NCBI GenBank assembly: GCA_944327245.1
Contig: CALVHD010000002.1
Coordinates: 1 to 64,000, forward strand
From: Candidatus Gastranaerophilales bacterium
Lineage (GTDB): Bacteria > Cyanobacteriota > Vampirovibrionia > Gastranaerophilales > Gastranaerophilaceae
Reading direction: 5' to 3'
DNA: 64,000 bases
In this document: positions 17,713 to 22,264 of the stretch, one piece after another
Numbering within the stretch: position 1 is the stretch's first letter
How the letters are laid out: each line of letters opens with the position of its first letter
Made by a program: the position numbers and the translations under genes
Notes under the pieces: generated by a model
Told to the model about the DNA's origin: nothing
Databases searched by the model: none
Seen by the model: the letters and a program-made list of their open reading frames with translations, nothing else

Positions 17713-19002
17713 ATGAAAAATACCGTTGTAGTTGGTGCGCAATTTGGAGATGAAGGAAAAGCTAAAATCACAGACTTATTAGCACAAAACGCTGATTTTA
17801 TAACAAGATTTCAAGGAGGCTCTAATGCAGGTCACACCGTTGTTGCAAATGGCAAAAAATATGCTTTTCACCTTGTTCCATCCGGTATTTTATATGAAAA
17901 TAAAATCTGCATGATTGGTGCAGGCTGCGTTATAAAAGTTGATGACTTAAAAAACGAAATAGATGGAATAATAAAACAAGGAATTTCTAAAGAACATTTT
18001 GAAAAATGCCTTAAAATATCTCCCCTAGCTCACATTACAATGAAATATCACACAGATATTGATGGATATAGCGAAAATTCCCTTGGAAAAGACAAAATAG
18101 GAACAACAAAAAAAGGAATAGGCCCGACTTATACAGACAAATATAACAGATGCGGAATAAGAGTTGAAGATTTATTTAACAAAGAAACTCTATCAAAAAA
18201 ACTTGATACAATTCTGCCTAAAAAAAATAAAGAACTTGAATTTGTATATAATTTGAAAACTTATACAAAAGATGAAATTTTAGCTGAATGCGATGAATAT
18301 AGAAAAATTTTAGCCCCGTATGTTGATTTTAATTGGCAAGAAAATTTATTAAATTATAAAAATAATAAATCCATTCTTTTTGAAGGTGCTCAGGGTGTTA
18401 TGCTTGATGTTGACTATGGAACATATCCATATGTAACATCTTCAAGCCCTACAGCAGGAGGCGCAGGTATCGGAGCTTCCATGGGTCCATTGACAATTCA
18501 AAGAGCAATCGGCGTATTTAAAGCATATATGACCAGAGTTGGCGAAGGTGCATTTATAACAGAATTAAACGACGAAACAGGTGAAAAACTAAGACAAATC
18601 GGAGGAGAATTCGGCGTTACTACAGGCAGAGCACGTCGTTGCGGATGGTTTGACGCGATAAGCGCAAAATATGCCGTTTTAGTAGGCGGATTAAATGAAG
18701 TTGCTCTAACAAAACTGGATGTATTAGACTCTTTTGACGAAATCAAAGTTGCAGTTGCTTACAAAAACAAATTAACAGGTGAAACCACAACACAATATCC
18801 GACAAACGTATATACACACTACGATTGGGAACCAATATATGAAACTCACAAAGGCTGGAAAACATCTGTTTCAAACTGCAAAAATTATGATGAATTACCT
18901 CAAAACGCCAAAAAATACCTAAAACGTCTTGAAGAACTTTTGGGAATAAAAATTTCAATAATCAGTGTTGGACCCGATAGAGAACAAACGATTTTCATAT
19001 AG
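17713..19002 (+). CDS. purA: Adenylosuccinate synthetase
   Basis: A 429-residue enzyme that joins IMP and aspartate using GTP, the first step from IMP to AMP. Landmarks: VVVGAQFGDEGKAK (usually QWGDEGKGK), GGSNAGHT, GTTKKGIGPTY, TTGRARRCGWFD and TKLDVLD. The GKGK-to-GKAK and W-to-F changes in the nucleotide loop are unusual, but the other motifs are intact, so activity is expected. SD GGGGGAG lies just before the ATG. Its end overlaps the convergent regulator gene by 8 bases. Confidence 0.96.
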   Translation: MKNTVVVGAQFGDEGKAKITDLLAQNADFITRFQGGSNAGHTVVANGKKYAFHLVPSGILYENKICMIGAGCVIKVDDLKNEIDGIIKQGISKEHFEKCLKISPLAHITMKYHTDIDGYSENSLGKDKIGTTKKGIGPTYTDKYNRCGIRVEDLFNKETLSKKLDTILPKKNKELEFVYNLKTYTKDEILAECDEYRKILAPYVDFNWQENLLNYKNNKSILFEGAQGVMLDVDYGTYPYVTSSSPTAGGAGIGASMGPLTIQRAIGVFKAYMTRVGEGAFITELNDETGEKLRQIGGEFGVTTGRARRCGWFDAISAKYAVLVGGLNEVALTKLDVLDSFDEIKVAVAYKNKLTGETTTQYPTNVYTHYDWEPIYETHKGWKTSVSNCKNYDELPQNAKKYLKRLEELLGIKISIISVGPDREQTIFI

Positions 19003-19339
19003 AAGTTATTTTGTAATACTGATATAAAGAAGAAATTATATTAATATTATCGCTATTTAAAGCTTCACTTAGCTCTTGTTTCATTTTGTGTATATTATTT
19101 TCTTCTTCAGTAAAATATAGCTGCCATGGTGCAATATTAAGAGCATTTGCAATTGCTACAAGATTTTCGCACTGTGGATAATTATGCCCTGATTCAATTC
19201 TTGATAAGCTTTTCATTTCCATATTAACAATTTCAGCCAATCTGTCTTGAGATAAACCTCTTTTTTTTCTGTATAATTTTATTTTCTCACCTATATTTTT
19301 TTTTAATTTTTTTGCATCAGTATTATAAGTCAACAACAT
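18995..19339 (-). CDS. XRE-family transcriptional regulator
   Basis: A 114-residue protein with a Cro/C1-type helix-turn-helix at about 15-70 (RKKRGLSQDRLAEIVNM, then LSRIESGHNYP) and a short helical tail. Such small XRE proteins are usually repressors. Its upstream region faces the pilin-leader gene at 19497, so control of that gene is possible but unproven. It overlaps the purA end by 8 bases. Confidence 0.9.
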   Translation of the reverse strand: MLLTYNTDAKKLKKNIGEKIKLYRKKRGLSQDRLAEIVNMEMKSLSRIESGHNYPQCENLVAIANALNIAPWQLYFTEEENNIHKMKQELSEALNSDNINIISSLYQYYKITSI

Positions 19340-19496
19340 ATCTCTTCCCCCGTCGTTGATAAAATTCTAATTTCAAAAAGGGTGTATAATAACTTATTTT
19401 AAATGAGATTTTTTTAATAATTCTAATTTATAGTTGTAATTTATAGAATTATAATGTAAAATTTTGATTAAAAATATCATCTAAAAGGTAAACACA

Positions 19497-21920
19497 ATGG
19501 ATAACATAAAAAAAGGCTTCTCGTTGGTCGAGTTGCTTATTTCGCTTATTGTAATTTCTTGTATAACTGCAGCTTTTACTCCTTTGATAACTAAAAAGTT
19601 TTCTTCTGGTGTCTTTGGTGGCTCGATTTCTGATATTAGTGCAGATTGTGAGAAATTTGGTCCTAATTGTAATCTTTGCACAAGTAATATTTGTCTATCT
19701 TGTACAGGGTTAACTTGTGCTCGTGATGAATATAAAGATAATAAAAGTTGTAGTTGTAAAAAATGTATTGATAAATTTGGTGCTGATTGTACTAAATGTA
19801 ATGAAGATAAATGTTTAACATGTCCAAGTGGACAATATTTAAATAGAGATGATAATTGTGTATCTTGTACAACTAAATTTAGTGATTGCGCTACCTGTAA
19901 TGAGGATCAATGTTTAAGCTGTAAAGATGGAAAGATATTAACTGACCCGACATCAACTACCCCATGCAGCAATTTTACTTGTTCAAGTCCTGATTTTATG
20001 CAAATTGGAAATCTTTGTATTACAAAGAAAAATATGGGAGATAGTGATAGTTTAACAATATCTGGAGGGGTAAACGTAGTAGATGTAGGAACAACCTGCG
20101 ATGTTAATAGTGCAAACTTTTGTTGTTGGAAAGGAAATACAGCTGGCACATGCAATAATGAAAACGGTGGTGGATACTCAGGTTGCAATAGAACAGTATG
20201 TGATCACTGGGCAGCAGAAAAAATTTGTGATAATTTCCATGCCGGAAATTTTACTTGGCGATTACCTACAGCCACAGAGATGAGCAACTGGGGAATTAAT
20301 TCAATAAATACAGGAACTTTGGGACTACAATTTTGCGATGATCATTCAGGTTATTCATCAGCCTTATGTCAAGCAACAAATAAGTGTCTAGGTTCCGATG
20401 ACGGATATTGCTACCCAAATGGTGTATGGAGTAAAGAATTAGATAGTTCGGCAAAAACATATTATTACTACTTAAATAGCGGCAATTGGGTTAGACACGC
20501 ATATTACAATACTCGCGCACATTCCACACGCTGCGTTGCAACTATGCCTCAAAGCTGTACTCAAAGAGCAGGTGCCGGTTGTTTAGCTTGTGATGGAGCA
20601 ACTTGTCTATCTTGTGATACAGGTTATGTATTAAAAAATGGAAAATGTGAACCGTTTGATTGCTCCGGCGATGATTTTATACAAGTTGGAAACCTTTGTG
20701 TAACAAAGAAAAATATGGGCGATGGTGATGAATTAAAAATTCCATCAGGAGTAAACGTAGTAAACACTGGGTCTACTTGTTCACCCAGCAGCACAAATTT
20801 TTGTTGTTGGAAGGGTAATACCATAAGTACGTGTGACAATGGAAATGACGGATACTCAGGATGTAACAGAACAGTTTGCGATCATTATGCAGCAGATTAT
20901 ATTTGTAAAAACTTTCATGCAGGTGATTATACTTGGCGCCTTGCAAAAACAAACGAAATGCTATATTGGGGGGTCAATTCTAAATATGTGAATCATAATG
21001 CACTTCAACTCTGCGATTACTATTCTAATAACTTGTCTGCAACATGTGCTGATTCTCGCAGATGCCCCGGAGCATATGACGATTCATGTAGCCCAAATGA
21101 CTTATGGAGCAATGAAGTACTTAGTTCTACTATTGCCTATAGTTATTATTTAACAAATGGTAATTGGAATCAAACTAATTATTATGAACGTTCTTATGCT
21201 TATTCTGTACGTTGTGTTACTGAAATGCCTGAATCTTGTGCACAGAAAACAGGTCAATCAAAATGCACATCTTGCAATGGAAGTACATGTTTATCTTGTG
21301 ATTCAGAAGCTGGATATGTGCTCAGGAACGGCAAATGCGAAAACACTTTCTGTAAAGGCAGTGATTTTATGCTTATTGGAAACCTTTGTATAACAAGAAA
21401 AAACATGGGTGACAGCGCAACTCTAAATATTCCAAGCGGGGTCAATGTGGTTAATGTAGGTACTACATGTAATCCTAGTAGTACAAACTTCTGTTGCTGG
21501 AAAGGTCAAACAGCAAACCCTTGTGATAACGCAAATGGAGGAGGATATTCAGGTTGTAATCGAACGGCATGCGATTGGTGGGCAGCTGATTATATTTGTA
21601 AAAATTTTAATTACAATGGTTTATATTGGAGATTGCCGACAATAATAGAAATGAATAACTGGGACATTAATTCAAAAAACCTAGGTATCAATGGGCTACA
21701 ATTGTGTGACATTTTGGCAGGATACAACTCTGCATTTTGCCAAAATGTTCAGAAATGCAATGGTTCATATAACGGTTGGTGTACAGTTAATCAGATTTGG
21801 AGTGGTACATGTAATGATTTCAATAATAGCAAATCTTTTATACTCTATGGCGGTGCAATTGGCTCAGATACACGTAATAATATGTATAGTTATTCGGTAC
21901 GTTGTGTGACTGAATTATAA
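19497..21920 (+). CDS. Pilin-leader, Cys-rich surface protein with three repeated domains
   Basis: An 807-residue protein. It starts with a class III/type IV prepilin leader (KKG then FSLVELLISLIVI, E at +5). Residues 51-162 are rich in C-x2-C-x(4)-CLSC-type motifs like EGF or furin-type repeats. Three ~182-residue domains follow at about 166-347, 393-574 and 623-805. Each holds IGNLCIT, NFCCWKG, GYSGCNRT, a W-R-L motif and a final S(V/T)RCV; the first two are followed by a CxxC-type linker. The W-R-L-P-T...SVRCV frame resembles the Fibrobacter-major-paralogous/DUF1566-type lectin-like fold. Probably displayed outside the cell and disulfide-bonded. Confidence 0.75.
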   Translation: MDNIKKGFSLVELLISLIVISCITAAFTPLITKKFSSGVFGGSISDISADCEKFGPNCNLCTSNICLSCTGLTCARDEYKDNKSCSCKKCIDKFGADCTKCNEDKCLTCPSGQYLNRDDNCVSCTTKFSDCATCNEDQCLSCKDGKILTDPTSTTPCSNFTCSSPDFMQIGNLCITKKNMGDSDSLTISGGVNVVDVGTTCDVNSANFCCWKGNTAGTCNNENGGGYSGCNRTVCDHWAAEKICDNFHAGNFTWRLPTATEMSNWGINSINTGTLGLQFCDDHSGYSSALCQATNKCLGSDDGYCYPNGVWSKELDSSAKTYYYYLNSGNWVRHAYYNTRAHSTRCVATMPQSCTQRAGAGCLACDGATCLSCDTGYVLKNGKCEPFDCSGDDFIQVGNLCVTKKNMGDGDELKIPSGVNVVNTGSTCSPSSTNFCCWKGNTISTCDNGNDGYSGCNRTVCDHYAADYICKNFHAGDYTWRLAKTNEMLYWGVNSKYVNHNALQLCDYYSNNLSATCADSRRCPGAYDDSCSPNDLWSNEVLSSTIAYSYYLTNGNWNQTNYYERSYAYSVRCVTEMPESCAQKTGQSKCTSCNGSTCLSCDSEAGYVLRNGKCENTFCKGSDFMLIGNLCITRKNMGDSATLNIPSGVNVVNVGTTCNPSSTNFCCWKGQTANPCDNANGGGYSGCNRTACDWWAADYICKNFNYNGLYWRLPTIIEMNNWDINSKNLGINGLQLCDILAGYNSAFCQNVQKCNGSYNGWCTVNQIWSGTCNDFNNSKSFILYGGAIGSDTRNNMYSYSVRCVTEL

Positions 21921-21976: not shown

Positions 21977-22264
21977 TTAATTATAATACCTGTTATAATA
22001 TTCAGGGCTATAGCGTTGTTTTGCGCTAATTCCATATGACCTTGAACGATTTATATTAGGATAAGGATTATCTCTTGACGGATACTGAATATTTCTTGTC
22101 GGACTTACGTTTCTCATTCTTTGCATTCTTAGTGCTCTCATTCTTTGATTTTGTAATTGCTGTTGAATGCCTAAGTATTGTGAATATTGATATTCGCCAA
22201 ATTCTGCACCAAAAACACAAGATAATAAAAAGCAAGAAAATATTATTAAGAGCCTGACTTTCAT
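21977..22264 (-). CDS. Small exported Arg/Gln/Tyr-rich protein
   Basis: A 95-residue protein with a clear signal peptide (MKVRLLIIFSCFLLSCVFGA); the LLSC could also act as a weak lipobox. The mature part is rich in Gln, Arg, Met and Tyr, with repeated QRMR/LRMQRMR units (about 40-52), and ends in PEYYNRYYN. No family recognised. It is convergent with the Cys-rich surface gene. Confidence 0.6.
   Translation of the reverse strand: MKVRLLIIFSCFLLSCVFGAEFGEYQYSQYLGIQQQLQNQRMRALRMQRMRNVSPTRNIQYPSRDNPYPNINRSRSYGISAKQRYSPEYYNRYYN

Follow-up and report, generated by a model that had tools for sequence, protein, structure and literature searches.

The window analysed here is a stretch of 64,000 nucleotides from a Candidatus Gastranaerophilales bacterium. 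The gene of interest within it encodes P0001, an 807-residue Cys-rich protein with a prepilin-type leader and three Lcl_C domains in tandem, next to which a regulator of the XRE type is encoded in the opposite direction. The ORF, with its leader, Cys-rich part and three repeats, had been claimed in a preliminary description of this DNA, and it is real and intact. The features of the locus, in window positions, are as follows.

18995–19339, minus strand: XRE-type (HTH_3) regulator of 114 aa, divergent and private to the P0001 locus (HTH_3 match at 3.6e-11)
19340–19496, unstranded: XRE–P0001 intergenic region, with AATTCTAATTT twice and an inverted TAGAATTAT as putative operator-like half-sites
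19497–21920, plus strand: P0001 gene, intact ORF (807 aa; prepilin leader, Cys-rich stalk and three Lcl_C domains)
19497–19631, plus strand: prepilin-type leader and hydrophobic helix (N_methyl PF07963 and TIGR02532; AF2 helix at residues 10–20, low confidence)
19632–19967, plus strand: Cys-rich stalk, residues 46–157, with 20 Cys (from sequence; Cys invariant in alignments; low synonymous divergence in most paralog pairs)
19968–20543, plus strand: repeat 1, Lcl_C, C-type-lectin-like domain (Pfam, AF2 model, fold search)
20325–20537, plus strand: VR-like segment of repeat 1, residues 277–347 (homology to sister-species VRs and their DGR template)
20649–21224, plus strand: repeat 2, Lcl_C domain (Pfam)
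21003–21218, plus strand: VR-like segment of repeat 2, residues 503–574 (same homology)
21339–21914, plus strand: repeat 3, Lcl_C domain (Pfam; the best stretch is residues 678–804)
21696–21908, plus strand: VR-like segment of repeat 3, residues 734–804 (same homology)

The whole protein contains 76 Cys. Its repeats are about 190 aa long (about residues 158–349, 385–576 and 615–807), are separated by short Cys-rich linkers (residues 350–384 and 577–614; 6 Cys), and are 52–55% identical in pairwise comparison; for repeats 1 and 2 the alignment score is 582, against a shuffle mean of -22 with an SD of 15. The similarity is unevenly distributed, reaching 62–65% before the VR-like segment and only 36–45% inside it, that is, in the last ~70 residues. 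At the DNA level the copies are only about 67–77% identical in blocks, so the triplication is old, as had been claimed. The description of the Cys-rich part as EGF/furin-type repeats, in contrast, found no match: a Pfam search of P0001 returned neither an EGF nor a furin profile at E<=1, and a relative in another genome of the genus (G010) matches Ephrin_rec_like weakly.

The leader is recognized by N_methyl in Pfam (5.6e-5, above cut-off) and by TIGR02532 in NCBIfam (17.8 bits for a cut-off of 16.3), and it carries a cleavage-type site G6/F-S-L-V-E, in which leader residues 1–6 precede the cut, F7 follows it and E stands at +5. The preliminary description had named the absence of a prepilin peptidase system as its own refutation. 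The same genome encodes, in a cluster, PilD with both A24 peptidase domains, PilB (T2SSE+MshEN), PilC (T2SSF) and a secretin, as well as a further T2SSE ATPase, and the earlier reading therefore survives its own refutation test. Behind the helix no pilin globular domain was found by Pfam, and the structural model of that region is weak (pLDDT 68), which makes assembly into a pilus uncertain. P0001 may be pilus-associated, T2SS-type or anchored in the inner membrane. In joining a prepilin leader to lectin-like modules it resembles the modular type IV pilins of Streptococcus sanguinis, PilB and PilA/PilC, which bear adhesive or lectin modules (PMC8179133, PMC9934059); those proteins, however, keep a pilin module, and none was detected in P0001.

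The repeated module had been called lectin-like, with a comparison to DUF1566 among the suggested checks, and this part of the description stood up well. Lcl_C/DUF1566 (PF07603) covers three stretches of the protein (6e-12; 46.3 bits for a Pfam cut-off of 34.9), and an AlphaFold2 model of the domain, built from 38 aligned domain copies, reached a pLDDT of 94 and a pTM of 0.91. Foldseek with this model gave nothing under 1e-3 and placed the C-terminal domain (CTD) of Legionella Lcl first (8q4e, E 2.6e-3). In VIA-align, where the Z values are moderate, the closest fold was the CTD of Bdellovibrio Bd2740 (8oks; Z 10.3, rmsd 2.3 over 100 residues), followed by the Lcl CTD (Z 9.5), the DGR protein TvpA (2y3c, Z 8.2) and many C-type lectins. 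No solved structure matched the domain profile convincingly in a search by sequence. Taken together, the moderate fold scores and the Pfam match make a C-type-lectin-like fold likely for the repeats, and the VR-like segments sit within this modelled domain. The two nearest structures belong to proteins of a different kind. The Lcl CTD, which shares the Pfam family and binds glycosaminoglycans, varies little among L. pneumophila strains (over 97% conserved), has no disulfides and is carried by a collagen-like stalk (PMC11162425), whereas the domains described here are hypervariable, Cys-rich and mounted on a prepilin leader. Bd2740 belongs to a family of surface recognition tips, but its trimeric fibres are of a different build (PMC10769870).

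P0001 is one member of a dispersed multigene family, which the preliminary description had missed. Its own MAG (1.70 Mb in 45 contigs, 97.35% complete) contains at least 13 dispersed family loci with a 5' end, six of them complete, plus four 3' fragments. The ends of contigs C3, C6, C8, C9, C11, C16, C18, C21, C26, C33 and C42 lie in or beside family genes; with such a large share of contig ends there, the family is under-assembled and the count is a lower bound. Matches to P0001 occur in 26 of the 28 genomes of the genus and are few and weak in other families. A phage origin was rejected: phage records held no match to P0001, viral contigs held no relatives, and the nearest phage RTs are only about 42% identical. 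In a tree of the domains, for which the input was picked by regex so that some domains were missed, the third repeats of this genome group together.

Divergence among the paralogs differs greatly along the gene. For the pair C2–C21a the synonymous p-distance is 0.06–0.23 in the helix and stalk but 0.53–0.88 in the domains. Synonymous distance in the helix and stalk is often low in other own pairs as well, though not uniformly, the stalks of C2–C23 and C2–C11 being more diverged; upstream of the leader the loci share no related DNA. From this combination of similar stalks, divergent domains and unrelated upstream DNA we infer gene conversion or other recombination among the dispersed copies, although a constraint at the DNA level could also keep stalk divergence low. 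In the lectin domains synonymous distances are near saturation, and in most comparisons the nonsynonymous distances of the VR-like segments are about twice those of the domain part before them (0.36–0.48 vs 0.13–0.29).

The XRE gene upstream had been proposed as a possible regulator of P0001, and it turned out to be a recurrent partner of the family. By the same test, a divergent XRE gene lies upstream of 41 of the 54 family loci with enough upstream DNA and of 0 of 180 other long genes (Fisher p 1e-34, for loci that are not independent across species). In the genome of P0001, 12 of the 20 HTH_3 genes over cut-off adjoin a family gene divergently and cover 12 of the 13 loci with a 5' end, the one at C21 having been identified by the HTH_3 search and not by phmmer. 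Nearly all of these regulators are well conserved at their locus, but they differ between loci. The window XRE shares 86–91% identity with its counterparts at this locus in three sister species and at most 39% with the XREs beside other family loci of its own genome; the own XREs are 21–52% identical among themselves, while for 10 of 11 another species has an 82–97% match beside a family gene, the exception being the C5 XRE with a best match of 51%. The intergenic region in the window contains AATTCTA/TAGAATT half-sites, and the stretch 19300–19560 has a mean column identity of 89% in four species. Judging from this arrangement, the locus-private XRE probably controls each adjacent gene separately, and the genes may be expressed in a mutually exclusive way.

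What the C-terminal ~70 residues of the repeats represent becomes clear from three sister species (G020, G025 and G017), in which they are the VRs of a DGR, a homology that the preliminary description had also overlooked. The cassette in G020 consists of a family gene, avd, RT and template, in this order, and cassettes of the same kind are present in G017 and G025. The Avd protein is identified by PF22296 (7e-9) and by a PHROG named Avd protein of DGR (2.6e-18). The RT matches RVT_1 (6e-14) and contains IGNLTSQ, which we take to be the SQ type of DGR RTs, and the template has Asn codons at the variable positions. When a VR is called templated at a non-adenine mismatch to the template below 0.15, the templated VRs number 7 of 12 in G020, 9 of 12 in G025 and 2 of 9 in G017 (loci measured). 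They differ from their own template at 33–53% of adenine sites, and in G020 and G025 their codon entropy is 0.10–0.16 bit at the third position vs 1.3–1.7 at positions 1–2. Where a protein has two domains, the templated VR is in some cases that of the first, so that internal sites are served too. The sister DGR thus rewrites VRs in trans and adenine-specifically, reaching many loci as well as tandem sites inside proteins, and non-templated members of the family coexist with the templated ones.

The locus of P0001 itself takes part in this process elsewhere in the genus. In all three sister species purA and the divergent XRE gene are kept next to a family gene. In G025 both of the two repeats of this gene are templated, with non-A mismatches of 0.03 and 0.06, and another family gene lies downstream of it; the three repeats of P0001 against two at the same locus in G025 bear out, between species, the suggestion that repeat number varies. 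In G017 the measured VR of the purA-locus gene is not templated (0.49). A G020 gene on another contig, which is probably the purA locus by its start and its downstream ORF, has a templated repeat 1 and a repeat 2 that is not. The downstream ORF in question lies in the window at 21977–22264 on the minus strand, encodes 95 aa with a lipoprotein-like N-terminus and no Pfam match, and is conserved at 79–82% identity in G017 and on the separate G020 contig.

In the genome of P0001 nothing of this machinery was detected at a MAG completeness of 97%. No RVT_1 profile match and no RT by protein search were found, no Avd by protein search, and no template by blastn with the G020 template. The 21 VR-like segments of the genome look equally unlike recent DGR products: relative to the sister templates their ratios of A to non-A mismatch are 0.8–1.6, their minimum non-adenine mismatch to any sister template is 0.35, their third-codon entropy is 1.49 bits, and the exact 14-base end TCGGTGCGCTGTGT, common to most templated VRs, is kept in 0 of the 21. 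An active DGR in this genome was rejected because the RT, Avd, template, third-codon and VR-end tests were all negative. A small contig with a DGR could nevertheless be missing from a MAG that is 97% complete. One may suppose that an active cassette was lost through assembly breaks at flanking family repeats, as many contig ends fall in family genes and as the cassettes of G020, G017 and G025 each have, on one flank, a family gene near a contig end. A working DGR should, however, leave some templated VRs, as it does in the sisters, and against the mismatch, entropy and VR-end values of all 21 segments we regard a missing cassette as quite unlikely.

The machinery was not found in the assembly, yet the variable positions are the same. 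The variability of the own VR-like segments follows the adenines of the sister template (Spearman 0.57, p 2e-7), a pattern equally expected from a shared ligand face and from an old DGR. An apparent residual imprint of a DGR, in the form of pyrimidine-ending codons (0.71 vs 0.57), was rejected as an effect of amino-acid composition, since four-fold codons at template AAY positions showed no pyrimidine excess in the own VRs (0.53 vs 0.49, p 0.47). The hypervariability of this genome thus affects the same positions as in the sisters, but it is old and looks frozen; given that neither DGR machinery nor a recent trace of templating was found, the variation would be inherited. It could be argued that these are ordinary structural proteins, minor pilins or T2SS pseudopilins, with domain repeats and with a variability due to neutral drift, in keeping with the prepilin leader, the pilus machinery of the genome and the near-saturated synonymous distances. 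This we consider very unlikely, since the variation is confined to positions that a DGR mutates in the sisters, nonsynonymous distance roughly doubles within the VRs, and the genes come with private regulators and a lectin fold.

A more serious alternative holds that the family was never a DGR target in this lineage, its variation having arisen by duplication, selection and gene conversion, and that the sister clade took up its DGR only afterwards. The distribution of the RT agrees with this, as the DGR RT clade of the G020/G025/G017 type occurs in 7 of the 28 genus genomes (G005, G010, G016, G017, G020, G022 and G025), far fewer than the genomes with P0001-like matches; so do the missing third-base imprint in the own VRs and the non-templated members in the sisters. 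The own variable positions nonetheless coincide with template adenines (as they also would on a shared ligand face), and the gene at the same locus is templated in G025. The RTs of G005, G010, G016 and G022 are 55–64% identical to the sister-type RT, and beside them lies a prepilin-leader target in G010 and G005 and a template-like ORF in G016, a target gene near the RT having been looked for in G022 with none identified; at this degree of RT identity the cassettes of G010 and G005 suggest an old association. Near-saturated synonymous sites, moreover, would erase any old imprint. With a shared face as the other explanation and a null four-fold control, loss here and later gain in the sisters are not told apart, and we see in the alternative a substantial possibility, short of an even chance.

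The reading we prefer, and hold to be probable, is that of a repertoire of surface lectins that is DGR-diversified in sister species, fixed in the genome of P0001, and under locus-private control. P0001 would be a surface lectin-like adhesin, one of at least 13 dispersed paralogs. Its prepilin-type leader and hydrophobic helix would serve as an anchor or as entry into a type IV pilus or T2SS-like machinery, and the disulfide-rich stalk would reach outward so that the three tandem Lcl_C domains show their hypervariable C-terminal faces, presumably for ligand binding. In the sisters Avd, RT and the template repeat would rewrite the VRs in trans, including those of the purA-locus gene of G025, while in the genome of P0001 the inherited variation would now be changing by point mutation and paralog recombination, mainly in the stalk. 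The conserved, locus-private divergent XRE would set the control of each gene. A bolder version, which we put forward tentatively and think rather doubtful, has a dozen or more scattered lectins, each with its own XRE switch, among which cells alternate over time, perhaps expressing a single member at any moment, while a trans-acting DGR, retained by some species but lost by others, refreshes the tips.

The familiar role of DGRs is to mutate a single tail fibre or lipoprotein. In the sisters, by comparison, many surface lectins at dispersed loci draw on one template, some of them with tandem sites in one protein, in an uncultured gut clade. Among DGR targets DUF1566/Lcl_C is reported to be the most frequent Pfam domain, and the proteins described here share with those targets the domain, the C-type-lectin-like fold and the position of the VR in the C-terminal half (PMC4159848, PMC6642488). 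They depart from them in that the family is dispersed, has a prepilin leader and private XREs, includes a genome without a detected RT, and has up to three VR-bearing domains per protein, those of P0001 being all untemplated. The use of a single template for many VRs, several per protein and in trans, is likewise shared with known multi-VR DGRs (PMC6642488; Thiohalocapsa PB-PSB1, PMC10907252), whose targets are phage-like or NACHT-linked sensors and others, whereas the targets here would be surface adhesins with one regulator per locus. The open literature, which omits most subscription journals, yielded no paper that names DGRs together with Gastranaerophilales or Melainabacteria. That nearly every hypervariable gene has a stable regulator of its own beside it suggests a controlled choice among variants, which would be a bacterial counterpart of antigen repertoires, and a single genus with and without the DGR machinery would allow its cost and benefit to be compared directly.

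Some further observations concern the RT loci of the genus. In G025 two template-like segments lie in tandem downstream of the RT (L071, 4316–4606 and 4699–5040, minus strand). The template-like segment by the RT of G010 (L072, 4822–5043, minus strand) is poor in Asn codons and differs from the VR without a bias toward adenines; it is perhaps a decaying template. Adenine-biased repeat pairs unlike the Lcl_C family are found at RT loci of G026 (L076, 1188–1374) and of G016 C1 (L080, 6381–7065), and these are probably separate DGRs with other targets.
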